Origin: Tritonibacter mobilis
GTDB taxonomy: Bacteria; Pseudomonadota; Alphaproteobacteria; Rhodobacterales; Rhodobacteraceae
Length of the DNA stretch: 64,000 bases
Assembly: GCF_001681715.1 (NCBI RefSeq)
Contig: NZ_LNWY01000005.1
Location: 1 to 64,000 of the forward strand
Reading direction: 5' to 3'
Part shown: piece after piece, positions 18,019-62,756 of the stretch
How the letters are laid out: every line of letters starts with the position of its first letter
How positions within the stretch are numbered: the stretch's first letter is position 1
Program-made: the position numbers and the translations under genes
Notes under the pieces: generated by a model
What the model was told of the DNA's origin: nothing
Seen by the model: the letters and a program-made list of their open reading frames with translations, nothing else
The model's database searches: none

Positions 18019-20244
18019 TTATGCGGCGAAACGCGCGCCCAGCGCCCGCAGATCGCGGCGTGTCAGATCGGTGCGCGCCAACTGGCAGTATTTGCTGGCG
18101 ACATAGCTGCGCCCCAATGATCCACTGAGACGGCGCGCCAAGAACAGGTCTGGGAACACATCGAACAATTCCCGGCGATCATCATCTGCGAGACCGCGCA
18201 ACGCCTCCGGGCCAGGCCAGAAGGTCTCTGTTGCGATCCCTTCGGCAAAGATGACCTGATGCGTTTCCGTCATCAGGTGGATGTAACTCACCCCTGTCTG
18301 CGGACTGCGGCGCGCGACACGGTCAGGCCGGAGCGCATGCAACAGCCGCGCGCGCACAAATGCCTCGTTCATATGACCGAGATCCCCCAGCCGCGGACGG
18401 TCCAACATAAATCGGTGCTGCGGCGAGATCATCAGGGGCCGGTCATTCGCAAAAAGGCCACCGGGGTGCAACACCAGCGGCATAAGGTGGGGTTGCGCGA
18501 TGAGGTCGTCACCGCTCAGATCGCGTCGTCCAGTCCAGATCACCGGCTGGAGCCCATTGTCCGCCGTCTGCAGCAAATCCCCTGTGCGGATCTGCTCCAC
18601 CGGGATTGCGCCGCGGGCCGTCGCGATGCGAATGCCCGGCGTAAAGCAAGGAATACCTGCCGCATAAAGCTGAGGTTGCGTGTTGATCATTGAGGGAGCA
18701 ACGCCCTTTAGCACCAACTGCTCACCATCGGGGAAGGTGAGAACCGCGCTCCCCGATCCATCGTCGGTGACAATAACATCAGAGGCTGTCACCAGCCCGC
18801 CTGCACCAGACCCGCCGCTCAGCCCACTGACATCGATCTGATCATTGTAGAACCCATCCAGATCATCATCCGTGAGATCAAAATCCGAGATTGTGTCGGC
18901 CCCACCGGAGGTGGTCATCACAAAACGGTCGTCGCCACCCCCACCGGTGAGACTGTCATCGCCCGCACTGCCCGTCAGCGTATCGGCCCCCGCGCCTGCG
19001 TCGACATTGACACCGGTGCTGGACGCGCTTGCATCCAGACTGTCGTCAAAATCCGTCAGCCGCAGCCGTTCGATTTCCTGAAAATAGGCGGTATCGCTGC
19101 CGCCTTCGATGATGCCGATTTCTGCACCCGTGAAATTGACCGAAGCCCCGCTGCTCCGACCGGAGAGATCAACGAGATCGTCATCAACGCCGCTCTCCCC
19201 CCCGATGATTGTATCGACGCCCGAATTGTCAAAGATCTGGAAGGTGTCGTCATCGGCGTCGCCCTTCAGTTCGTCATTGCCGGTGCCGCCGATCAGGGTA
19301 TCGGACCCCGCCCCGCCCTGAATGAGATCATCGCCCTCTTGGCCTGACAGATAGTCGTCCCCATCGCCGCCCTCGACTGTATCGGCGTCTGTGCCTGCCC
19401 AGATCGTGTCATCGCCATAGTCCCCATCAAGGGTGTCGGCGCCGGTTTCACCATATAGGACATCATCCCCATACATCCCGAGGACCAGATCATCGCCAGA
19501 GCCAGCAAAAACTGTGTCATTCAGGCCGGACGCGCCGAAACTCACGGTTGGGTTCGCGCCCCCTTGAATGGTGCCGAGGTACCAATCATCAGGGTGGCGC
19601 AATTCCCAGTTATACTCCTCATAAGTGCTCTGAGTCAGCGTGTCGCCCGGTTGGATGGTTGCGTAATATTGCAGCTGGCCAGCGCCATCTACCCACCACA
19701 GTTCAATCGGGCCGTCGGCAGAATTGGTGACGGTGAGCGACGTGGGTGTTGTGCCCGTTCCGGACGCTGCAGAAGAAAGGGTCGCCCACACATTGTCAGC
19801 ATAAACCGAGTCGTTTCCCGCTCCCGCTAAAATGCTGTCTTGCCCATCCCCGCCCGCAAGATTGTCATTGCCTTCGCCGCCATCGATGGTGTCGTCACCC
19901 TGATCACCCGAAAGCGTATCATCTCCTCCTGCACCGATCAGACTGTCATCGCCATCGGATGCTTCGATGTAGTCACTCGCGTCATTGCCGGTGATGATAT
20001 TGAAATCGTCCAAGCTGGTTGGGCTTCCCAAATTGGAATCAGTGCTGCCATTTCCATCTTCACCGACGCGATACCATGCCCCCCCGTCCCAGATTGAGAT
20101 GATACGTGCCTCTGCATCAATGTTTACATAGTAGGTGCTTGGGAGCGCACGAAAATCCAGCCAATGGCCGTCGCTGGATTCAGATATAGAAGACCAGAAT
20201 CCGGGGTCATTATAATTTGAGGACGTTACGCTATAGGTCGTCAT
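18019..20244 (-). CDS. RTX calcium-binding protein with C-terminal Hint domain
   Basis: A 741-aa secreted-type protein. Asp/Gly nonapeptide repeats (GGDDTLSGDQGDDTIDGG style) form RTX beta-rolls at about 85-150, 235-340 and 425-455; these bind calcium and usually signal type I secretion, though here the repeats are not C-terminal. From Cys533 (CFTPGIRIATARG) a Hint_2 domain follows, with PLMISPQHRFML as the later motif. Hint domains can self-cleave or splice; roseobacters often carry RTX-Hint proteins of unknown role. No signal peptide. A 6-bp gap separates it from the convergent carbamoylase gene, and no type I exporter is nearby. Confidence 0.9.
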   Translation of the reverse strand: MTTYSVTSSNYNDPGFWSSISESSDGHWLDFRALPSTYYVNIDAEARIISIWDGGAWYRVGEDGNGSTDSNLGSPTSLDDFNIITGNDASDYIEASDGDDSLIGAGGDDTLSGDQGDDTIDGGEGNDNLAGGDGQDSILAGAGNDSVYADNVWATLSSAASGTGTTPTSLTVTNSADGPIELWWVDGAGQLQYYATIQPGDTLTQSTYEEYNWELRHPDDWYLGTIQGGANPTVSFGASGLNDTVFAGSGDDLVLGMYGDDVLYGETGADTLDGDYGDDTIWAGTDADTVEGGDGDDYLSGQEGDDLIQGGAGSDTLIGGTGNDELKGDADDDTFQIFDNSGVDTIIGGESGVDDDLVDLSGRSSGASVNFTGAEIGIIEGGSDTAYFQEIERLRLTDFDDSLDASASSTGVNVDAGAGADTLTGSAGDDSLTGGGGDDRFVMTTSGGADTISDFDLTDDDLDGFYNDQIDVSGLSGGSGAGGLVTASDVIVTDDGSGSAVLTFPDGEQLVLKGVAPSMINTQPQLYAAGIPCFTPGIRIATARGAIPVEQIRTGDLLQTADNGLQPVIWTGRRDLSGDDLIAQPHLMPLVLHPGGLFANDRPLMISPQHRFMLDRPRLGDLGHMNEAFVRARLLHALRPDRVARRSPQTGVSYIHLMTETHQVIFAEGIATETFWPGPEALRGLADDDRRELFDVFPDLFLARRLSGSLGRSYVASKYCQLARTDLTRRDLRALGARFAA

Positions 20245-20506
20245 TTGCTTCCGAATTCACACCATCAACACCACATAGACCGGCCCCCAAAGCAAGAGAG
20301 CCTGTAACGCGCGCGTGCTGAAATCTGGCTTTCGCGCGATGCAATTGAACCTAGAAAAGATGAATTAATACCGGCTCAAACCGACCGCAAAATCACCGGT
20401 ATCATCATTAAATCAGCGCAAGGAATTGGTCTTTTCTTGAGGTGGGCAAACGGAAAACCGCCCACAGACATGCTGCGGGCGGCGCAATCGTGTTGAGGGG
20501 TTTGGA

Positions 20507-21880
20507 TCAGCCCAGCACGGATTTGACCGCGCGCAGGGTGCCTTCGACCACCTGATCGGCCTCGGCGCGGGTCAGGCAGAAGGGCGGCGCAAAGCCCAGG
20601 ATATCGCCCTGCGGCATGGCGCGCGCGATGATCTTGTCCTGTTCCAGCAGTTTCGCGGAAACCTGCGGGCCGATCTTGTCGGCGACGTCAAAGAAGGTGC
20701 GACTGTCGCGATCCTTCACAAATTCCACCGCGCAGAGCATGCCCTCGCCGCGTATATCGCCCACATTGGCGTGCGCGCCCAGCGCCTCGGCCATGGTGGC
20801 GTTGAGGTACGCCCCTACCTCGCCCGCGTTGCTGACAAGGTTCAGCTCGTCGATGAGTTTCAGGTTGGCCACACCCGCCGCCGCCCCGATGGGGTGCGCG
20901 GAGTAGGTCCAGCCGTGGCCGATGGGGCCGTTTTCATCGGTGCCTTGCTCCAGCACCTTCCAGACCTTGTCGCTGACAATGGAACCGGAAAGCGGCGCAT
21001 AGGCGGAGGTCAGACCCTTGGCGATGGTGATGATGTCGGGCTCCAGACCGTAGTGGTCAGAGCCGAACATGGTGCCCAGACGGCCGAAGCCGGTGACCAC
21101 CTCATCCGCAACCAGCAGAATGTCGTGTTTCTTCAGGACTGTCTGGATCGCCTCCCAATAGCCTGCGGGCGGCGGCACGATGCCCCCGGTGCCAAGGATC
21201 GGCTCACCGATGAAGGCCGCGATGGTGTCGGCACCTTCACGCTCGATCAGAGCTTCCAGCTCGGCCACGCAATGCGCGACGAACTGCTCTTCGGTCTGGT
21301 TCAGATCTTCGCGACGGAAATAGTAAGGCGCTTCGGTGTGGATCACCTGCTCGACGGGCAGGTCGAATTTCTTGTGGAACAGCTCAAGCCCCGTCAGGGA
21401 GCCGGTGACCAGCCCGGAGCCGTGATAGCCGCGCCAGCGCGAGATGATCTTTTTCTTCTCGGGGCGGCCAAGGATGTTGTTGTAATACCAGATCAGTTTG
21501 ACGTTGGTTTCATTGGCGTCCGAGCCACCAAGGCCGAAATAGACCTTTGACATGTTCTTGGGCGCGCGATCCAGGATCATCTTGGCCAGCGTGATCGAGG
21601 CCTCGGTGCCGTGGCCCACGTAAGAATGATAATAGGCCAGCTCGCGCGCCTGATCGACGATCGCCTCGGCAATCTCCTGACGGCCATAGCCGACGTTGAC
21701 GCAGTAGAGCCCGGCAAACGCATCCAAGAGCTTGGTGCCGTCGCGGTCCTCGATAAAGACGCCGGAGGCGGTCTTGATCACCCGGTTTGCGCTCTCACCG
21801 CGCGCGTGCTGCGCCAGATGGGTCGAGGGGTGAAAGAAGTTGTCGCGGTCCCATTGGTCCAGTTGATCGTTCTTCAGCAT
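20507..21880 (-). CDS. doeD: Class III aminotransferase (DoeD-like)
   Basis: PLP-dependent aminotransferase of class III, 457 aa. Cofactor motifs: GLGGSDANETNVKL, RWRGYHGSG, LLVADEVVTGFGRLG (Asp binding the pyridine N) and TIAKGLTSAYAPL (Lys Schiff base). Close relatives use diamines, beta-alanine or taurine as amino donors with pyruvate. Placed after an aldehyde dehydrogenase, a DoeX-type Lrp regulator and a DoeB-type deacetylase, it most likely converts L-2,4-diaminobutyrate to aspartate semialdehyde in ectoine breakdown. The doe label rests on the gene set; sequence alone would also allow a polyamine or omega-amino acid aminotransferase. Good ribosome binding site AGGAAGGA before ATG 21880. 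Confidence 0.8.
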   Translation of the reverse strand: MLKNDQLDQWDRDNFFHPSTHLAQHARGESANRVIKTASGVFIEDRDGTKLLDAFAGLYCVNVGYGRQEIAEAIVDQARELAYYHSYVGHGTEASITLAKMILDRAPKNMSKVYFGLGGSDANETNVKLIWYYNNILGRPEKKKIISRWRGYHGSGLVTGSLTGLELFHKKFDLPVEQVIHTEAPYYFRREDLNQTEEQFVAHCVAELEALIEREGADTIAAFIGEPILGTGGIVPPPAGYWEAIQTVLKKHDILLVADEVVTGFGRLGTMFGSDHYGLEPDIITIAKGLTSAYAPLSGSIVSDKVWKVLEQGTDENGPIGHGWTYSAHPIGAAAGVANLKLIDELNLVSNAGEVGAYLNATMAEALGAHANVGDIRGEGMLCAVEFVKDRDSRTFFDVADKIGPQVSAKLLEQDKIIARAMPQGDILGFAPPFCLTRAEADQVVEGTLRAVKSVLG

Positions 21881-21942
21881 GATCTGTCCTTCCTATTTCC
21901 GTGCTCCACCTGCGGGGTGGAAAATCTCATCTCACTCAAGGG

Positions 21943-23418
21943 TTAAGCCCAGTCGCGGCAGACGTATTTGACCTCGGTAAACTCTTCCATGCCCAGCCGT
22001 GCGCCCTCGCGCCCCATGCCGGATTGTTTGGTGCCGCCAAAGGGGATCGGCGCACCAGTGACCTTGGTGCGATTGACCGCCACCATACCAAACTGCAACG
22101 CGCGGCTCAGGCGATAGATCCGGCGCGGGTCGTGGCTGTGCACATAGGCAACGAGGCCATATTCGCTGTCATTGGCACGCTGGATCACCTCATCCTCGGT
22201 GTCAAACGGCGTGATCGGCGCCACCGGGCCAAAGGTCTCTTCGCGCAGGATGGCCGCATCTGCGGGCACATCGGTCAACACGGTGGGTTCATAAAACAGC
22301 GGCCCCAGCGCGTGGCGTTTGCCACCACAAGCGAGGGTTGCTCCCTTTTCCAGCGCGTCGGCCACGTGGTGTTCCTGTTTTTGCACCGCTTTTTCGTTCA
22401 TCAAGGGACCGATGTCGGGATCATCAATCCCCTTGCCCACAGTCAGCGCCTGCGTCGCTGCAACAAAGCGGGTGCAGAACTCGTCATAGATGGCGCGTTC
22501 AACAAAGATGCGGTTGGCCCCGAGGCAATCCTGCCCGGAGGTGGCAAATTTCGCCTTGATGGTCTCGGCCACCGCGCGGTCCAGATCGCAGTTCTTAAAG
22601 ACGATCACCGGGGCATGACCGCCCAGTTCCATCACCAGCCGTTTGACCGTCTCGGCGGACTGGCGATAGAGCAGCTTGCCCACCTCGGTCGAGCCGGTGA
22701 ACGACAAGGCCCGCACCCGCGCGTCCCGTGTCCATGGCTCAACCACCACTGGGGCCTTGCCCGTAACCACGTTGAACACGCCCTTGGGGATGCCCGCGCG
22801 TTCCGCAAGCTCGGCCAATGCCAGCGCGCTGAAAGGTGTTTCACCAGAAGGATGTGCCACAACGGTGCAGCCTGCCGCCAGCGCGGCTGCGGCCTTGCGG
22901 GTCAGCATCGCGGACGGAAAGTTCCACGGCGTGATCAATGCGGCCACGCCCACAGGCTCGCGCCACAGCTCCACCTCGGCATCGGGCAAATGGCTGGTGA
23001 CGCCCTCGATATTGGGGCGTTTGGATTCCTCGGCATAGAATTCGACAAAGGCCGCGCCATACTCGATCTCGCCGCGCGCCTCTGAGAGGGGCTTGCCCTG
23101 CTCCAGCACCATCAGGCGGGCGAGGTCTTCTTTGTGTTCGATCATCAATTCAAACCAGCGACGCAGGATGGCGCAACGGTCCTGCGGCAGCATCAATGCC
23201 CAGCTGGCAAAGGCGGCATGCGCCGCATCCACCGCAGCAGAGGAATCCTCTGCCGTCATTGCGGTCACATCACCGATGAAATCCCCGGTGGCCGGGTCGT
23301 TCACAGCGACAACCTCGCCATTGGATGAGGCACACCATTTCCCATTTATGTAGGAAAACGAGCGCACTAGCGATTTGTCACTGATCTCCGCACGCGCGGA
23401 CAGGGCCGATAACGACAT
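21943..23418 (-). CDS. doeC: NAD(P)-dependent aldehyde dehydrogenase (DoeC-like)
   Basis: Aldehyde dehydrogenase family protein, 491 aa, near succinate-semialdehyde dehydrogenases. Catalytic Cys298 (SGQDCLGANR) and Glu264 (MELGGHAP) are present, as is the ITPWNFP cofactor motif. The usual cofactor-binding Lys of the KP-x3-TP motif is replaced by His189 (VVAHPSGETP), which may change NAD versus NADP use. In the doe pathway it would oxidise aspartate semialdehyde to aspartate. It lies 62 bp upstream of the aminotransferase and 84 bp after the Lrp regulator, all on one strand. Confidence 0.82.
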   Translation of the reverse strand: MSLSALSARAEISDKSLVRSFSYINGKWCASSNGEVVAVNDPATGDFIGDVTAMTAEDSSAAVDAAHAAFASWALMLPQDRCAILRRWFELMIEHKEDLARLMVLEQGKPLSEARGEIEYGAAFVEFYAEESKRPNIEGVTSHLPDAEVELWREPVGVAALITPWNFPSAMLTRKAAAALAAGCTVVAHPSGETPFSALALAELAERAGIPKGVFNVVTGKAPVVVEPWTRDARVRALSFTGSTEVGKLLYRQSAETVKRLVMELGGHAPVIVFKNCDLDRAVAETIKAKFATSGQDCLGANRIFVERAIYDEFCTRFVAATQALTVGKGIDDPDIGPLMNEKAVQKQEHHVADALEKGATLACGGKRHALGPLFYEPTVLTDVPADAAILREETFGPVAPITPFDTEDEVIQRANDSEYGLVAYVHSHDPRRIYRLSRALQFGMVAVNRTKVTGAPIPFGGTKQSGMGREGARLGMEEFTEVKYVCRDWA

Positions 23419-30767: not shown

Positions 30768-31679
30768 TTACCCTTCGTAGGCATCCATGCCCTTCAGCTT
30801 ATCTTCGGTCATCGGTAGATAGACACGAACTTCGTCACCGCCGGTCTCATGCAGAACTTCGATCTGGTTCAGGTCCAGTTTTACCGGCTTTTCACCGATA
30901 CCGAGGAAACCGCCCACATCGACGATGGCGTGGGTGATCTCACCCTTGTCGTTCATCACGAGGTCAGACACCTCGCCCATCCATTCGTCCTTGGCATCAT
31001 AAGCGCGGGCACCGGTCAGCATTTCGGCGGTGAGCTTATCACCCTGCACGGTTTCAAAGCCCTCGCGCTGCATCTCGCCCATCTCGCTCTTGACCTCGGC
31101 AGTGGTCTCTTTGACCTCAGCGGTCGCATCGTTCACTGCTTCGCCAACATTGTCTGCTACGGCTTGGGCGGAGTTCTCAAGGTCCTCGGCTGTGTTTTCC
31201 ACTGCAGTCGCGGTGTTATCCGCCACCTGCTCTGCACGATTGCCGAGATCGTTCATCGCGGTGTGCTCATAAGCTGGTGCATTCTTCAACTCAGCCACTT
31301 CCGCCTGCATCACCAAGAAATAGTCCGCGTCATCTTCTGCGGTGGCGCTGTCCGACACCATTTTCAGAGCATCCATGTCGACAGCGACCTGACGTTCACC
31401 GATGCCGAGGAACCCCCCGATATCAACCAGAACGGACTGGATGTTGCCATCGCGGCTCAGCACGATGTCATGCACTTCGCCGATGTCTTCCCAATCTTGC
31501 TGCACACCTTCATAGCCCTCAGGGTTGACCTCGGTGCTGGTGGTGTAGATGCGCTGGCCAATGAACTCGGAGGCTTGGATCGCCATTGGATCAGCTTCGG
31601 CCATAAACTTGTGATCATCCGCAAACGCCATGGTAGAAGTGGCAGTCAGCAGGGCGGTAGAGATCAGAAGGTTTTTCAT
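30768..31679 (-). CDS. PRC-barrel domain periplasmic protein with helical linker
   Basis: A 303-aa exported protein with two PRC-barrel domains (about 35-110 and 220-290; each holds VDIGGFLGIGE or VDVGGFLGIGE). Between them lies an Ala/Glu/Asn/Thr-rich helical segment (about 140-200, NTATAVENTAEDLENSAQ) reminiscent of LEA-type stress proteins. Signal peptide MKNLLISTALLTATSTMAFA; the start is ATG 31679, with GAGGAGAG upstream. A shorter paralogue lacking the helical insert lies at 61044. An EcfG-type promoter upstream suggests stress induction. The molecular role is unknown. Confidence 0.85.
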   Translation of the reverse strand: MKNLLISTALLTATSTMAFADDHKFMAEADPMAIQASEFIGQRIYTTSTEVNPEGYEGVQQDWEDIGEVHDIVLSRDGNIQSVLVDIGGFLGIGERQVAVDMDALKMVSDSATAEDDADYFLVMQAEVAELKNAPAYEHTAMNDLGNRAEQVADNTATAVENTAEDLENSAQAVADNVGEAVNDATAEVKETTAEVKSEMGEMQREGFETVQGDKLTAEMLTGARAYDAKDEWMGEVSDLVMNDKGEITHAIVDVGGFLGIGEKPVKLDLNQIEVLHETGGDEVRVYLPMTEDKLKGMDAYEG

Positions 31680-31730
31680 CAGTACTCTCCTCATTTGAGT
31701 GTATTCAGTTGCGGCCGCTTACAGCCACAC

Positions 31731-31756
31731 AACGAGAGCACCGGAGAAATTGTTCC
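31731..31756 (-). promoter_or_regulatory. EcfG-type (general stress) promoter
   Basis: On the minus strand: GGAAC (31756-31752), 17-nt spacer, CGTT (31734-31731), 52 bp upstream of the PRC-barrel start. Matches the alphaproteobacterial EcfG consensus. Confidence 0.75.
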
Positions 31757-56201: not shown

Positions 56202-56349
56202 TCTGTTGCGGGTATCCAGACCATCGCGTCTGGATGCCCGCCCACACTTTGTCGCGCTCAAACCCGTGCTGGGCCCTGCGCACATCCTCCGAAAAACCAA
56301 GGCTCTGTTGTCGCCAACCGGCGAATACGGCAGAGATTGAGAATTTCGC

Positions 56350-56374
56350 GGAACAAAATCTGCCCTCTGCCGTT
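56350..56374 (+). promoter_or_regulatory. EcfG-type promoter (DUF1328-dps)
   Basis: GGAAC (56350-56354), 16-nt spacer, CGTT (56371-56374), 56 bp upstream of the DUF1328 ATG. It probably also serves dps, 48 bp beyond. Confidence 0.85.
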
Positions 56375-56429
56375 GTCTCCCCGAAGCCCACAGAGGGTGG
56401 GCATTGAAACACGGCAAAGGAGACACCCC

Positions 56430-56591
56430 ATGCTTGGTTGGGCACTGACATTCCTAGTGATCGCGCTGATCGCGGCCGTCTTTGGCTTTGGCGGCATCGC
56501 CAGCGCCTCGGCCGGGATCGCGCAGATCCTCTTCTTCATCTTCCTGGTGATGTTTATCGCCGCGCTGATCTTTCGTGCTGTGCGTCGCTGA
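56430..56591 (+). CDS. DUF1328 small membrane protein (YtjA family)
   Basis: A 53-aa protein with two hydrophobic segments ([20 protein letters not shown] and [16 protein letters not shown]) and an RRAVRR-like basic end. The [11 protein letters not shown] link between them is the family signature. AAAGGAG site before ATG 56430. These proteins are commonly stress-induced with unknown function; the EcfG promoter supports that. Confidence 0.9.
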
Positions 56592-56639: not shown

Positions 56640-57137
56640 ATGACGACTGCATTGAACGTGAAACCACAACTGGCCCCCGTCGAGACAGGCGTTCGCGACA
56701 CCGAGGCAATCGCCGAAGGTCTGAGCGACGTGCTCGCGGACACTTACCGCCTCACGCTAAAAACCCATATTTATCATTGGAATGTCGAGGGCCCGTTGTT
56801 CTTCTCGCTGCACAACCTCACCGAGGAGCAGTATCAGAACATGTTCGCGGCTGCAGACGAGTTGGCAGAGCGCATCCGCGCCTTGGGCCACCTGACGCCG
56901 GGCAAGATCAATGGCGTGCTGTCTGACAGCATCGTAGATGATCTGGGCCAAATGCCGAGCGCGGGCGAAATGTGCAAAGACCTTGAGAAAGATCACATGC
57001 GTTTGGCGCACCGACTGCACGCGCTGATCGAACTTGCGGAGGCGCGCAAGGATATGGTGACCGGCGACTTGGCAACCGAACGCGCGGCCTTCCACGAAAA
57101 AGCGGCTTGGATGCTGCGTGCTTTGTCTGCCTCGTAA
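56640..57137 (+). CDS. dps: Dps-family DNA-binding ferritin-like protein
   Basis: A 165-aa Dps protein that stores iron, consumes peroxide and protects DNA in stress. Ferroxidase-site residues lie in KTHIYHWNVEGP (two His), FFSLHNLTEEQY and ADELAERIRALG (Glu/Asp). The four-helix length is normal. GAAAGGAG site before the ATG. Likely co-transcribed with DUF1328 from the EcfG promoter; terminated by a strong hairpin. Confidence 0.93.
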   Translation: MTTALNVKPQLAPVETGVRDTEAIAEGLSDVLADTYRLTLKTHIYHWNVEGPLFFSLHNLTEEQYQNMFAAADELAERIRALGHLTPGKINGVLSDSIVDDLGQMPSAGEMCKDLEKDHMRLAHRLHALIELAEARKDMVTGDLATERAAFHEKAAWMLRALSAS

Positions 57138-57290: not shown

Positions 57291-58112
57291 TTAGCTGGTC
57301 AACGTATCGGTAGAGGAGAAGAACATCGCCTGACTGATCGCCGAGATTACCTGATCCGGGACATAGGGCTTTGCAATCATGAAGGCAGGTTCATGACGTT
57401 CGCCAGTGAGGAGACGCTCAGGGAAGGCCGTGATGAAGATCACGGGCACATCACCCAGCTCTTCAAGCAGGTCCGCCACGGCATCAATACCGCTGGAGTT
57501 ATCGGCAAGCTGAATGTCAGCCAGGATAAGGTCCGGCTTTTCCTCAAGGCCAAGTTTCACCGCCGCCTTGTGAGTGCGTGCAATACCCGTGACCTCGTGC
57601 CCCATCATGGAACAGATACCTTCAAGATCCATCGCGATAATCGCTTCATCCTCGATGATCATGATCTTGCCGCTCACGGATTGCTGCATTTCATCGCGTG
57701 CAAGCTGGATCAGTCGCGCCGCTTCATCGGCAGAGATTTCCATGACGTCGGCAACTTCGCTCACCGAAAACGCCTCTACTGTGTTGAGCAAGAGCGCCTC
57801 GCGGGTATTGGCGGTCAGAGAGGCCAGATGTTGCAGCGCGCGGGCCCGTGGGCCGTCATCCAGCTCTGCCACAGGCTGGCCAGAACTGCTCCAGAGTTTG
57901 TGGAACACTTTGAAAAGCGCCACTTTTCCACCGACGCTCTCCGCATTAAAGCAGGACGGATCGGCAAGGATCGCCTCCAGCGTCGAGGCCGCATATGTGT
58001 CGCCCGATTGCTGAGCACCGGTGAGCGCACGCGCATAGCGGCGCAGGTATGGCAAATGCGGAGCGATAAGGTCAGACAGAGTCAGCGCTTGTCCTGTTGT
58101 AGGGGTCGACAA
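57291..58112 (-). CDS. phyR: PhyR anti-anti-sigma response regulator
   Basis: A 273-aa PhyR: an N-terminal sigma-like domain (about 10-140; HLPYLRRYARALTGAQQSGD, LLNTVEAFSVSEVADVME) and a C-terminal receiver (about 148-265) with phospho-acceptor Asp199 (LILADIQLAD) and Lys in FMIAKPYV. When phosphorylated it binds NepR and releases EcfG. The start is TTG 58112, with AGGAG about 8 nt upstream. Divergent from nepR-ecfG; the shared promoter makes it EcfG-dependent, a positive feedback loop. Confidence 0.96.
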   Translation of the reverse strand: MSTPTTGQALTLSDLIAPHLPYLRRYARALTGAQQSGDTYAASTLEAILADPSCFNAESVGGKVALFKVFHKLWSSSGQPVAELDDGPRARALQHLASLTANTREALLLNTVEAFSVSEVADVMEISADEAARLIQLARDEMQQSVSGKIMIIEDEAIIAMDLEGICSMMGHEVTGIARTHKAAVKLGLEEKPDLILADIQLADNSSGIDAVADLLEELGDVPVIFITAFPERLLTGERHEPAFMIAKPYVPDQVISAISQAMFFSSTDTLTS

Positions 58113-58140
58113 TTTTTTTCTCCTGTCACCAATATTTCTC

Positions 58141-58171
58141 GGAACAAACGCACGATTGGGGCGTTTGTTCC
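58141..58171. promoter_or_regulatory. Bidirectional EcfG promoter (phyR / nepR-ecfG)
   Basis: Perfect 11-bp arms (GGAACAAACGC and GCGTTTGTTCC) flank 9 nt. Each strand therefore reads GGAAC, 16-nt spacer, CGTT: plus strand 58141-58165, minus strand 58171-58147. One symmetrical element can fire both ways. TSS for phyR would fall near 58140 and for nepR near 58172. Confidence 0.9.
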
Positions 58172-58225
58172 ATGGAAATGGATATTATTTGCGCCTGAAA
58201 GTTAAAGGTGTTGCGGGAGAGATGA

Positions 58226-58423
58226 ATGGCAAACAAACTTTCACAACAGCCATGGGACACTCTGATCGACGAAAACCTTAAGCGGGTTTTTGACGAAGAT
58301 GCGAATGCGGATTTGCCGCCGCATCTGATGGACCTACTTGATCGTCTGGACAAGATTCCGGTCGCGGATGGGTCAGGGAGCGCATCCGGCGCTCCCTCCC
58401 ACTCCCAGGAGGAGGCCGAGTAA
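58226..58423 (+). CDS. nepR: NepR anti-sigma factor
   Basis: A 65-aa anti-sigma factor. Two helices typical of NepR are seen (PWDTLIDENLKRVFDED and LPPHLMDLLDRLDKI), with an acidic Ser-rich tail. It holds EcfG inactive until PhyR~P captures it. The stop codon is directly followed by the ecfG ATG, so translation of the two is coupled. GAGAGATG-type site before ATG 58226. Confidence 0.93.
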   Translation: MANKLSQQPWDTLIDENLKRVFDEDANADLPPHLMDLLDRLDKIPVADGSGSASGAPSHSQEEAE

Positions 58424-58981
58424 ATGGATAGACAAGGTGCGAAGGCTGAATTGACAAGCCATATGAAGGTGCTGCGCGCTTTCGCCATGAGCTTGACCCG
58501 CAACGATGCGGCAGCAGATGACCTCGTGCAGGACACAATCCTGAAAGCATGGACCAATCTGGACAAGTTTCAGGAAGGGACTAACATGCGGGCATGGCTT
58601 TTTACCATCCTGCGCAACACGTTTTATTCAGGCCGTCGCAAGGCGATGCGCGAAGTGGAAGATTCCACCGGCAGCATCACCGAAAGCATCTCTGTGAAGC
58701 CAGCCCATGACGGCCGCCTGCAACTGGCAGAGTTCCGTCGCGCGCTGAGCGAGTTGCCAGCTGAACAACGCGAGGTTCTGACGCTGATCGGCGTTTTGCA
58801 ATATTCCTATGAAGAGGCCGCCGAGGTCTGCGGCGTGAAGGTCGGCACGGTCAAAAGCCGCCTTAACCGTGGTCGCGAGGCCCTCTCCATCAAGATGCAG
58901 CTAAAGGCTGACGAACAGCTGGAACTGACAGATGCAGCCACCCATGCGGTCGTCGCTGCAAGTGGTGGAACCGCCGCGTGA
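58424..58981 (+). CDS. ecfG: ECF sigma factor EcfG
   Basis: A 185-aa ECF15-type sigma factor. Region 2: MKVLRAFAMSLTRNDAAADD, LVQDTILKAWTNLDKFQEGT; region 4: RALSELPAEQREVLTLIGVL, YEEAAEVCGVKVGTVKSRLN. It directs RNA polymerase to GGAAC-N16/17-CGTT promoters of the general stress response, six of which are seen in this window. The ATG abuts the nepR stop; its own stop overlaps the kinase start by 4 nt. Confidence 0.96.
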   Translation: MDRQGAKAELTSHMKVLRAFAMSLTRNDAAADDLVQDTILKAWTNLDKFQEGTNMRAWLFTILRNTFYSGRRKAMREVEDSTGSITESISVKPAHDGRLQLAEFRRALSELPAEQREVLTLIGVLQYSYEEAAEVCGVKVGTVKSRLNRGREALSIKMQLKADEQLELTDAATHAVVAASGGTAA

Positions 58982-60828
58982 ACAGAATGAACTTTCCGTC
59001 CCTCGCCCTGCTTCGGGGTGGGGGCGCCCGCAATCGCGCCTCATCCATTTCTGACAATTCACCCGACGCGCCCCGGCCCTTCGCCTGGGCGCGGGGTCTG
59101 TCGGTGCGCCTTGCCGTTATGCTCTCTGTCGCGATGGTGCCGCTGGGCCTCATCGCAGTGGATCAAACCGTGCGGCTGCAACAAGAGGTCACCGCCTCCA
59201 ACAACCTGAGCCTAAAAGCACTCACCGCAGAATTTGCGCAAGAAGAGCGTGAGATCATCAAATCCGCCTTCGCCTCTGCCGAGGCACTTGCGCTTTCAGT
59301 GCCCGATCTGACCCAAGATCTGGATCGCTGCCGGGCGTTGATGGAGCGTTTCATCGACACCGCCCAAGAGCGCTACAGCTTTGCAGGTTTTCTGCCCAAA
59401 GACGGCGTCATGTCCTGCGCCTCCACCGGGCTGACAATCGACTATTCTGAGAATCCGAACTTCCCAGATTGGATGCGTCGCCCGAAGCGTGAAATCAGGG
59501 TGAACTCCTTTGGCCCCGTTGCAGGCAGCGCGGTCCTGATCATTTCCGAACCCGTCTATGATCCGAACGGCACCTTTATCGGCAATCAGATCATTCACGT
59601 CCCGCACGAACGCATCGACAAGAAATTTCAGACCAAGCTTGGCGAGCGCCCGCTTGATCTGGTGACACTGAGTGCCGAGGGCGACATCCTGAGTGCCTCT
59701 GGTGCGCGCGAGACGGCGTTGGATCGCCTCCCCGCCAACATGAGCATCAAGGAGCTGATCTCGCTTAATCCGCGTCACATCGAGGCAGAGAATGCAGCAG
59801 GAGAGATGCGACTGTTCTCCATCGTCCCGATCCTGAGCGATGCGTTCTACGTGGTCGGAAGCTGGGACCCGGAGGGCATACACGCCCCGACAGAAACCAA
59901 CGCGTTGCAGCATCTCTTTTTGACGCCTGCGCTGTTTCCGATGCTGATGTGGCTTGTCAGTCTGGTCCTGATCTACGTGGCGCTGGATCATCAGGTTGTC
60001 AGGCACCTTCGCATCATCGGTATGCAGATGCGCCAATTTGCCCGCTCCCGCGTGCTGCCCAGCCCTCCAAAAAGCGGACTGATGCCGCATGAGCTTGAGG
60101 TCATCTATAACCAATTCACGCAAGTCTCCGAAAAGCTGTTGCATGACGAGGCACATCTGTTTGATGCCATGCACGACAAGGATGTGCTGCTGAAAGAGCT
60201 GCATCATCGGGTCAAAAATAACCTGCAATTGATCTCTTCGATCATCTCGATGCAGATCCGCAGAACACGCAATCAGGTGACGGCAGCCGCGCTAAAGACC
60301 GTGAACCAACGGGTGACCAGCATGGCGACGGTACACCAGACGCTGTATCAGGCGTCAGAGCTTGGTCGCGTTCAGGCCAATGACCTATTGCGTGACGTGG
60401 TTAAACCGCTGACCGAATTGGCCCCGACCACCGCGCCTATACCCAAGATCGACATCGATCTGGAGCCGGTTGTCCTCTATCCGGATCAGGCCGTCCCGCT
60501 GGCACTGCTGACCGTCGAGGCCGCAACAAATGCGCTGAAGTATCTTGGCGTCGACAAGGCTGGCAATCGCTGGGTCCGCGTTTCACTCAAAGTTCTGCAA
60601 GAGGGTGAAGTCTGTCTGACCATCGCCAATTCGACCTCCGATGAGGCAGAATTTGAAGACGAAGGCACCGGGCTTGGCAGCCAGTTGATCCGCGGCTTTG
60701 CCCGCCAGTTGGAGTGCAGTCCAAAGATCACCGAGGGCGAAGACAGCTACGCCATGAGCGTGACCTTTGAGACATTGCCCTTTGACCACGAAGACAGAGC
60801 GCTCGCCGGCGTCGATCACGACAACTAA
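58978..60828 (+). CDS. HWE/HisKA_2 sensor histidine kinase (PhyK-type)
   Basis: A 616-aa membrane sensor kinase. Membrane segments at about 43-65 and 315-337 flank a periplasmic sensing region of about 250 residues. The cytoplasmic HisKA_2 motif KELHHRVKNNLQLISSI holds the phospho-His (His409 or His410), followed by an ATPase domain (VEAATNALKYLG, GTGLGSQLIRGF). Kinases of this type at this locus phosphorylate PhyR. Starts GTG 58978 overlapping the ecfG stop. The signal sensed is unknown. Confidence 0.92.
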   Translation: MNRMNFPSLALLRGGGARNRASSISDNSPDAPRPFAWARGLSVRLAVMLSVAMVPLGLIAVDQTVRLQQEVTASNNLSLKALTAEFAQEEREIIKSAFASAEALALSVPDLTQDLDRCRALMERFIDTAQERYSFAGFLPKDGVMSCASTGLTIDYSENPNFPDWMRRPKREIRVNSFGPVAGSAVLIISEPVYDPNGTFIGNQIIHVPHERIDKKFQTKLGERPLDLVTLSAEGDILSASGARETALDRLPANMSIKELISLNPRHIEAENAAGEMRLFSIVPILSDAFYVVGSWDPEGIHAPTETNALQHLFLTPALFPMLMWLVSLVLIYVALDHQVVRHLRIIGMQMRQFARSRVLPSPPKSGLMPHELEVIYNQFTQVSEKLLHDEAHLFDAMHDKDVLLKELHHRVKNNLQLISSIISMQIRRTRNQVTAAALKTVNQRVTSMATVHQTLYQASELGRVQANDLLRDVVKPLTELAPTTAPIPKIDIDLEPVVLYPDQAVPLALLTVEAATNALKYLGVDKAGNRWVRVSLKVLQEGEVCLTIANSTSDEAEFEDEGTGLGSQLIRGFARQLECSPKITEGEDSYAMSVTFETLPFDHEDRALAGVDHDN

Positions 60829-60963: not shown

Positions 60964-60988
60964 GGAACATTGAGTGGCGCTTTGCGTT
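60964..60988 (+). promoter_or_regulatory. EcfG-type promoter (PRC-barrel gene 2)
   Basis: GGAAC (60964-60968), 16-nt spacer, CGTT (60985-60988), 55 bp before the ATG at 61044. Confidence 0.85.
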
Positions 60989-61043: not shown

Positions 61044-61853
61044 ATGAAAAAGCTGTTGATTTCCACGTCTCTGATCATCGCGATGGGTTTGCCCGCTGTT
61101 GCAGCAGAGACCAGTGACATGTTCCGCAGCGAAGCCGGTCCCGCAGAGTTCCATGCCTCGTCTTTTGTGGGAAAGCGCATTTACCAGACCGAAAATGATG
61201 CGCTCAAGGATGTGATGGACGGCGTTCAGGACGGCTGGGCTGACATCGGTGAGGTCAATGATGTGATCCTCAGCCGCGATGGCACAGCAGAGGCGGTTTT
61301 GGTCGATATTGGCGGTTTTCTCGGGGTCGGAGAGAACCAGATTGCCGTTGATATGGACGCGCTGAAGTTTGTGCGCAACGGCAATTCAGACGGGGGTGCG
61401 GATGGCTATTTCCTCGTCCTGAATGCCCCGGCTGATGCCCTGGAAGCCGCCCCACGCTACGAGACCGCCAAGCAGCCCGCCATTGCAGAACCAACGCTCA
61501 AGGAACCCAAACGCAGCGATGCTCCGGCGGATCGGGTGGAGAGCGCATTTGGCATCAATGAAACCACCGAAGCCTCGGTTCACATGGCAGAGCTGACCGC
61601 AGAAGAACTGCTCAGCGCGACCGCCTTTGATGCCAATGACGAAATGATCGGACAGGTGGCTGATATCGTGATGGACGGTGAGGGCAACGTAAACGCCGTT
61701 GTGGTCGACGTCGGCGGTTTCCTCGGCCTTGGGGCCAAGCCGGTCGAACTGGAACTGGCGGACCTCAGCATTGAGGATGAATCCGGCACCATTCGCATCT
61801 ACACGATGTTGACCAAATCCCAGATGGAAGAGCTGCCCGAATACAAGGGCTGA
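61044..61853 (+). CDS. PRC-barrel domain periplasmic protein
   Basis: A 269-aa exported paralogue of the protein at 30768. Signal peptide MKKLLISTSLIIAMGLPAVAAE. Two PRC-barrel domains (about 35-115 and 185-255), both with VD(I/V)GGFLG(V/L)G(E/A). The helical Ala/Glu linker of the paralogue is replaced by a shorter Pro/Ala-rich stretch. TAGGAG site before the ATG. Directly behind an EcfG promoter. Probably an envelope stress protein; ligand or partner unknown. Confidence 0.87.
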   Translation: MKKLLISTSLIIAMGLPAVAAETSDMFRSEAGPAEFHASSFVGKRIYQTENDALKDVMDGVQDGWADIGEVNDVILSRDGTAEAVLVDIGGFLGVGENQIAVDMDALKFVRNGNSDGGADGYFLVLNAPADALEAAPRYETAKQPAIAEPTLKEPKRSDAPADRVESAFGINETTEASVHMAELTAEELLSATAFDANDEMIGQVADIVMDGEGNVNAVVVDVGGFLGLGAKPVELELADLSIEDESGTIRIYTMLTKSQMEELPEYKG

Positions 61854-61952: not shown

Positions 61953-62540
61953 CTAAAAGAGATGGATCGCCGCCCCGCCGATCGCAAGGGTCAAGCCCGT
62001 GACGGTCACCAGCGCGATCAGCCCATCTCCGGTCAGCATCGACAGCGCCAGCAAAGCAACAACGCCGCCGAGGATCGACGAAGTAAATGGCAAGATTTCA
62101 AGGAAGGGCATGATCAAACCGCACAACAGGCAAATGCCCTGAAGCACCCGCAAGAACGGCGGTGTCAGCAGCGATTGCAAACGGCGTTTAAATCTGCGGT
62201 CCATCCAAGCCGCAAGCGATCGCAGCGTGCGGGTTGCTTTTTGCGTATTGCGCGCAGGCAGTGAGCGTTTCGACAAGAATGAGGGCAACCACAGGTGATT
62301 GCGTCCCATCAACATCTGCGCTGAAATCAACGCAATGGTGATGCCACACGCCGAGGAAAACAGCGGGATACCACTCAATGGTGACACCAATGCCAGCGAT
62401 GGGGCCAACAACACTGCGGCAATGGATTTGACCCCCAGTTCATCCATCAGTTCGGATACTTGCAAACCATCCTTGCCGTCTTCTAACAGCTGGTCGGTCG
62501 TATCTAATACATCTTCGACTGGGTGGCTCGACTGGGTCAT
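61953..62540 (-). CDS. ExoD-family membrane protein
   Basis: A 195-aa protein of the exopolysaccharide synthesis ExoD family, with four or five membrane segments (SIAAVLLAPSLALVSPLSGIP; VLQGICLLCGLIMPFLEILPF; then LGGVVALLALSM and ALVTVTGLTLAIGG). The start is ATG 62540 (MTQSSHPVEDV); the longer frame to 62687 runs through the EcfG promoter. In Sinorhizobium ExoD is needed for alkaline tolerance and EPS production; the precise activity is unknown. Stress control fits. Confidence 0.88.
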   Translation of the reverse strand: MTQSSHPVEDVLDTTDQLLEDGKDGLQVSELMDELGVKSIAAVLLAPSLALVSPLSGIPLFSSACGITIALISAQMLMGRNHLWLPSFLSKRSLPARNTQKATRTLRSLAAWMDRRFKRRLQSLLTPPFLRVLQGICLLCGLIMPFLEILPFTSSILGGVVALLALSMLTGDGLIALVTVTGLTLAIGGAAIHLF

Positions 62541-62580
62541 GGGGTCCGTTTTCCAAAAAAGGGGCTTGGCTCGAATTCTG

Positions 62581-62605
62581 AACGCCTCAGGCGGGGCAAA
62601 GTTCC
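62581..62605 (-). promoter_or_regulatory. EcfG-type promoter (ExoD gene)
   Basis: On the minus strand GGAAC (62605-62601), 16-nt spacer, CGTT (62584-62581), 41 bp upstream of ATG 62540. Confidence 0.85.
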
Positions 62606-62756
62606 CTTTGATTTCACCGTTATTCAATTGGCCATTATAAGGTCGGAACAAAATAGGCGGAAAATTTCCTTTAAAAATCAGGAACATTCTGCCGCCTCTG
62701 CGTGTTGATAGTGCAGATCCCGCGGGGATATGAGCACTATATCAAGGAGCTAAACG

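Follow-up and report, generated by a model that had tools for sequence, protein, structure and literature searches.

In the Tritonibacter mobilis window analysed here, a continuous stretch of 64 kb, the core genes of the general stress response are arranged divergently. The gene phyR (57291..58112, minus strand) encodes the response regulator and anti-anti-sigma factor (NF006623, 351.8 bits against a cut-off of 240; PF22029, PF22233, and PF00072), and it starts with a TTG codon preceded by AGGAG. In the opposite direction, the anti-sigma factor gene nepR (58226..58423, plus strand; PF18557, 34.7 bits against a cut-off of 25.7, with no NCBIfam match) is followed by ecfG (58424..58981, plus strand), which codes for the ECF sigma factor of the general stress response (NF009198, 314.1 bits against a cut-off of 270). 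This is the sole copy above the 270-bit cut-off in the 4.7-Mb genome, where a second ECF gene reaches 130 bits. The ecfG gene overlaps by 4 bp a gene for an HWE/HisKA_2 sensor histidine kinase (58978..60828, plus strand; PF07568, PF07536). This protein scores 201 bits with the PhyK model NF051872, under the cut-off of 750, and is possibly the kinase of PhyR.

The gap between phyR and nepR-ecfG holds the element described here, whose sequence at 58141-58171 is GGAACAAACGC ACGATTGGG GCGTTTGTTCC. The original prediction had placed there an inverted repeat with perfect 11-bp arms and 9 nt between them, and a repeat search recovers exactly this: the arms 58141-58151 and 58161-58171 are 100% complementary, they flank a 9-nt centre, and no other inverted repeat of 8 nt or longer occurs within 58100-58240. 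It had also read GGAAC-N16-CGTT, the EcfG consensus, on each strand. A pattern scan locates this motif at 58141-58165 (plus) and 58147-58171 (minus), and the consensus is the one given in PMC7083833. The putative nepR-ecfG promoter (58141..58165, plus strand) has its -35 GGAAC at 58141-58145 and, after N16, its -10 CGTT at 58162-58165. The putative phyR promoter (58147..58171, minus strand) has its -35 GGAAC at 58171-58167 and, again after N16, its -10 CGTT at 58150-58147. The -10 of either promoter is separated by a single base from the -35 of the opposing one, so the predicted side-by-side placement of these elements holds at the level of coordinates, and both start sites would lie just outside the palindrome. 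On both strands, then, a GGAAC -35 and a CGTT -10 with a spacer in the 16-17 range are linked to the core general stress genes phyR, nepR, and ecfG, as in promoters of the EcfG (ECF15) type. From the repeat, the motif scan, and the comparisons given below, we describe the 31 bp at 58141..58171, which have no strand of their own, as a candidate symmetric bidirectional EcfG-type promoter in its interleaved form.

Taken alone, the promoter motif is only mildly unusual, because the six matches to GGAAC-N15-18-CGTT in the 64-kb window (1.8 expected) are also reached in 2 of 100 shuffles. Four further sites of this pattern are present in the window, each upstream of a likely gene start and in the right orientation. 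One (31731-31756, minus strand) lies ahead of 30768-31694, which is PRC-barrel-like by eye, and another (60964-60988, plus strand) precedes a PRC-barrel protein gene (61044-61853, PF05239). A third (56350-56374, plus strand) goes with the ORF 56337-56591, which encodes a small membrane protein and probably starts around 56430; a Dps-like ferritin (56640-57137) comes next. The fourth (62581-62605, minus strand) is associated with a membrane protein ORF (61953-62687, likely start around 62540), which may be ExoD-like. For two of the four, the longest listed ORF includes the site, and an internal ATG follows downstream. These sites are possible members of the EcfG regulon. On contig C9 of the same genome, at least five GGAAC-N15-18-CGTT sites are grouped within about 4 kb (18144-22209) and adjoin an ECF sigma gene (C9:22339-22785) that scores 130 bits with the EcfG model, under the cut-off. 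This region is possibly a second stress-sigma locus.

The symmetric combination of two such motifs was searched for with the total length left free. A strict pattern (inner gap 1/1, length 28-34) has a single match in the 4.7-Mb genome of T. mobilis. Of 295 family genomes, 6 contain it, each with one match that is always 31 bp long, and all six sit between divergent phyR and ecfG; the reversed-pattern control gives none. When the pattern is relaxed (inner gap 2/2, GTT alone required, length 28-36 bp), it is found in 74 of the 295 genomes, again once in each, against 3 of 295 for the reversed control. These 74 matches are 32 bp (45) or 33 bp (29) long and have no other length, and the 30 whose location was looked up all lie between divergent phyR and ecfG. 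Lengths of exactly 32 or 33 bp imply spacers of 16 or 17 bp in both directions. Since the locus classifier used below demanded 16 or 17, the free-length search provides independent evidence for these spacers. The idea that the symmetric element serves at other places too was considered and rejected: among the 35 GGAAC-N15-24-GTTCC sites of T. mobilis, the window site alone has interleaved -10s, and the patterns give one site per genome. Five of the other sites, 27 or 28 bp long, have NGTT at N16/N17 both ways and fit the definition of the coincident form described below. A site of that length yields the double NGTT by construction, and five is the number predicted by the length spread, that is, the chance level.

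The arrangement was then followed across 221 PhyR loci from three sources: 80 named genome contigs, a sample at order level, in which 86 of 121 genomes have PhyR above cut-off, and a sample at class level, in which 42 of 241 do. The named set holds the best 80 of at least 471 PhyR relatives, and its query was built from four symmetric-form loci; the order sample, with 91 loci, is less biased. A divergent NepR-like ORF was present in 200 loci, which were kept, and the 21 others were dropped before counting. Locus L066 was one of these, hence 79 rather than 80 named loci. Five classes of locus were distinguished, namely interleaved (31-33 bp), coincident (27 bp), separate, with a promoter on the nepR side alone, and with none; spacers of 16 and 17 alone were accepted, and at most one core mismatch. 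By "family" we mean the broad Rhodobacteraceae, inferred from named relatives and corresponding at NCBI to Roseobacteraceae and Paracoccaceae (L085 is titled only Alphaproteobacteria). The class set includes four family loci that the order search turned up (the window genome, two of G294, and one of G055).

In the named set (n=79), 77 loci are interleaved, one is separate, and one has neither promoter; a first pass allowing up to one mismatch per promoter had given 77 overlapping loci out of 80. The order set (n=91) contains 63 interleaved, 10 coincident, 0 separate, 16 nepR-only, and 2 empty loci, and the class set (n=30) contains 7 interleaved, 5 coincident, 11 separate, 2 nepR-only, and 5 empty ones. 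Grouped by kinship, the 174 family loci (some species being present twice) comprise 143 interleaved, 10 coincident, 1 separate, 17 nepR-only, and 3 empty loci, while the 26 outside the family comprise 4 interleaved, 5 coincident, 11 separate, 1 nepR-only, and 5 empty. Locus L106 of the class set was called coincident by the script, with one mismatch in a -35 and at 196 bp from phyR, and this call is probably due to chance. Dinucleotide-preserving shuffles of the same regions produce the interleaved form in 0-0.04% of cases and the coincident form in 0.3-0.9%. Overlap at phyR/nepR loci exceeds chance. The comparison across Rhodobacteraceae proposed with the original prediction thus confirms overlapping opposed EcfG-type promoters in 153 of 174 family loci, although 17 of the 174 have the nepR-side promoter only. 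Two other layouts were also seen. In L075, a Vannielia MAG, separate back-to-back promoters (60 bp) are present inside an interleaved clade that includes L079, L159, and L171, apparently as a recent change. Outside the family, L087, L091, L094, and L107 have back-to-back divergent EcfG-type promoters with adjacent -35s and a total length of 57-59 bp, a layout that mirrors the interleaved form.

Because some species are in two sets, the 147 interleaved loci represent 140 distinct ones. Their -35 is an exact GGAAC on 279 of 280 sides (140/140 on the phyR side), an exactness that was not forced, as the classifier tolerated one mismatch. The spacers combine as 16/16 in 56 loci, 17/17 in 35, 16/17 in 34, and 17/16 in 15. 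The inner gaps are unequal in 49 of the 140, and no conservation is seen in the centre. The phyR side has CGTT in 104 loci and the nepR side in 82; 62 loci have it on both sides and 16 on neither. At least one -10 therefore departs from CGTT in 78 of the 140 (58 on the nepR side, 36 on the phyR side), so that in many species one of the two promoters may be weak. The accessible text of PMC7083833 describes the AAC of the -35 as almost invariant and the -10 as flexible, which fits this variation, and the motif GGAAC-N16-17-C/GGTT in the available part of PMC12148442 supports accepting GGTT as a -10. The two -10s of a locus are identical in 68 of the 140, against 64.5 expected from shuffled pairings. 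In six loci (L048, L151, L156, L181, L208, and L211) the same altered -10 (TGTT, GGTT, AGTT, or CATT) is found on both sides. These are six of the 16 loci without CGTT on either side, and the matches may reflect chance or a clade-specific preference. At some positions outside the -35, left-right agreement of the arms is slightly above shuffles (96 of 140 at position 5, 85 expected). Concerted evolution of the arms was considered because of this slight excess, yet it was rejected, as the -10s agree no more than shuffled ones do.

The two sides also differ in their surroundings and in their losses. Positions 3-8 beyond the palindrome on the phyR side are A-rich, with 64% A in interleaved loci, 67% in coincident loci, and 32% in nepR-only loci (all classified loci, kinship ignored). 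This A-rich right flank was examined as an upstream A/T tract of the nepR promoter and discarded as such: it is missing in loci showing the nepR promoter only, so it goes with phyR. One-sided family loci always lack the phyR side (17 nepR-only against 0 phyR-only among 174). In two of them, L166 and L192, the phyR-side GGAAC is still in register and the -10 is spoilt, and they look like decayed interleaved sites.

In the coincident form, GGAAC-N17-GTTCC, the element is 27 bp long and each -35 contains the GTT of the -10 that faces it. It is found in ten family loci (L157, L179, L183, L190, L197, L198, L207, L218, L219, and L222). On an EcfG tree of 183 distinct rows, these ten and four interleaved loci make up one group of 14 with a support of 94. 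The arrangement labels change 19 times on this tree, against a shuffled mean of 44.8; it was computed with FastTree, 70 of its 180 inner branches are unsupported, and its outgroup is not one clade. Between the 32/33-bp and 27-bp forms the arms are shifted by 5-6 bp, roughly half a turn of the helix, with both spacers still at 16. The AAC of an EcfG -35 complements the GTT of its -10, and an EcfG promoter is thus already half symmetric. By sequence reasoning, the addition of CC after the -10 would be enough to create the coincident form. This complementarity suggests that promoter fusion is easy to evolve, and the 27-bp form is an illustration. The median length of the phyR-to-nepR region in the family is 177 bp for interleaved and 159 bp for coincident loci, as compared with 255 bp for separate pairs outside the family and 251 bp in the single family locus with separate promoters.

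We consider it highly probable, from the pattern and its conservation, that EcfG, the general-stress sigma factor, uses the element as a promoter in both directions. The same observations bear on its rivals. Perfect 11-bp arms are what the operator of a dimeric transcription factor would look like, the promoter match then being secondary, and the left-right agreement above shuffles at some positions outside the -35 would suit such a site, though kinship could cause the excess. A dimeric operator has fixed half-sites in a fixed helical phase. Here the inner gaps of a single site's two arms differ in more than a third of the interleaved loci (the 49 noted above), and the arm separation moves by half a turn between the two forms; on these two grounds the operator was rejected. 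Under free length, only those lengths that give 16/17 spacers occur, the -10 pairs are identical hardly more often than expected, and 11 of the 26 loci outside the family have separate, non-overlapping promoter pairs. We thus regard an operator as very improbable. The restriction to 32/33 bp, the unconserved centre, and the half-turn shift with spacers of 16 are what favour a promoter. Another explanation is that only the nepR-ecfG direction works and that the half-symmetric consensus produces the phyR-side match incidentally. It would account for the phyR side always being the one missing, and this bias also fits R. sphaeroides, a species not identified among the loci, where the available text of PMC5830050 reports that membrane stress alters ecfG mRNA and not phyR mRNA. 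However, the phyR-side -35 of the interleaved form shares no bases with the nepR-side -10 and is nonetheless exact in every distinct locus, CGTT is commoner on the phyR side than on the nepR side, and in the 11 separate loci outside the family phyR has a promoter of its own. A single working direction is accordingly improbable, and EcfG driving both directions is a well-supported prediction.

Whether the overlap has any effect is a separate matter, and it is quite conceivable that both promoters are real and that their overlap merely reflects a compact intergenic region, with no regulatory consequence. Overlapping family loci do have the shorter phyR-to-nepR regions, and the lone family locus with separate promoters is one of the long ones. 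In the accessible text of PMC12825309, moreover, all five E. coli sigma70 bidirectional promoters tested are without competition at basal activity, being too weak for it; competition appears upon strong activation of one direction, and noise is lowered at the promoter studied for it. Space does not force overlap, though, because 57-59 bp are enough for the four back-to-back pairs outside the family, and overlap survives the change of register to the 27-bp form. As to the claim that the two polymerases must compete for the same 31 bp, geometry excludes simultaneous binding, and so this part stands, while the E. coli cases at basal activity count against competition as a necessity.

For the preferred reading of a bidirectional EcfG promoter, the following mechanism can be proposed. 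EcfG-RNA polymerase would bind the element in either orientation, transcribing nepR-ecfG rightward, and probably the kinase gene with it, or phyR leftward. Two holoenzymes cannot fit on 31 bp, so exclusion would act at the binding step, with one polymerase at a time on the element, and if one promoter melted at its -10, the opposing -35 would be perturbed. Release of EcfG under stress would raise the two arms of the partner switch in concert. With s as the sigma level, the two orientations would be occupied with probabilities KR*s/(1+KR*s+KL*s) and KL*s/(1+KR*s+KL*s). The ratio KR/KL would be independent of s. Since both outputs would be alternatives of one site read by one sigma factor, the ratio of phyR to nepR-ecfG initiation would be set by the two half-sites and stay constant as EcfG rises, whereas separate promoters would approach a ratio of 1 at saturation. 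The positive feedback originally proposed is too simple a description and has to be qualified, because transcription on the nepR side would also yield more of the anti-sigma factor NepR. The partner switch rests on the balance between PhyR, NepR, and EcfG, and how this balance is held during self-amplification is a natural question. Tentatively, and with rather low confidence, we suggest that selection keeps the promoters fused because exclusion makes the element a fixed-ratio splitter, which would cap total output at a single polymerase at any moment and both stabilise and de-noise the partner switch. If this is true, a single site of about 31 bp that divides EcfG polymerase between the two arms would be a concrete mechanism.

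The genes, their divergent order, EcfG control, and the consensus are all familiar. EcfG-dependent promoters are stated for both the phyR and the nepR-ecfG units of Alphaproteobacteria (PMC8103513; PMC4814048), and the consensus is documented in PMC7083833; in the portions of these three papers that are available, overlap or symmetry of the divergent promoters is not described. The same applies to the accessible part of PMC12148442, where the promoters predicted at the stress loci of Rubellimicrobium thermophilum come with no mention of overlap or symmetry. In R. sphaeroides, the nepR-ecfG promoter is placed opposite the phyR coding region (PMC5830050, in its available text). A literature search, mostly of papers outside subscription, found no description of the fused symmetric form. 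Divergent EcfG promoters at phyR/nepR-ecfG are thus already known, and the fused form appears new as far as we have found. What is added here is that two promoters, each predicted to depend on EcfG, are one element in this family.

The closest known systems also include the sigma70 bidirectional promoters (Warman et al., 2026; PMC12825309), in which pseudo-symmetric DNA is bound in two orientations, opposed binding is mutually exclusive, and divergent transcripts result. The element at 58141-58171 is likewise a single pseudo-symmetric element with motifs on both strands too close, by geometry, for simultaneous binding, and exclusion and divergent transcripts are predicted for it. In the sigma70 type, as described in the accessible text, a shared -10 carries the symmetry, and the distance between divergent starts is commonly 10, 18, or 23 bp. 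The present element has separate -10s (58147-58150 and 58162-58165), and its -35s and -10s are those of two complete ECF promoters, which across the loci are either interleaved (31-33 bp) or coincident (27 bp). The element would therefore work like a bidirectional promoter and would not be of the shared -10 type. If this is true, bidirectional promoters extend beyond the shared -10 of sigma70 and include fully interleaved elements read by a stress sigma factor, where one sigma factor, itself encoded by one of the two outputs, would drive both directions.
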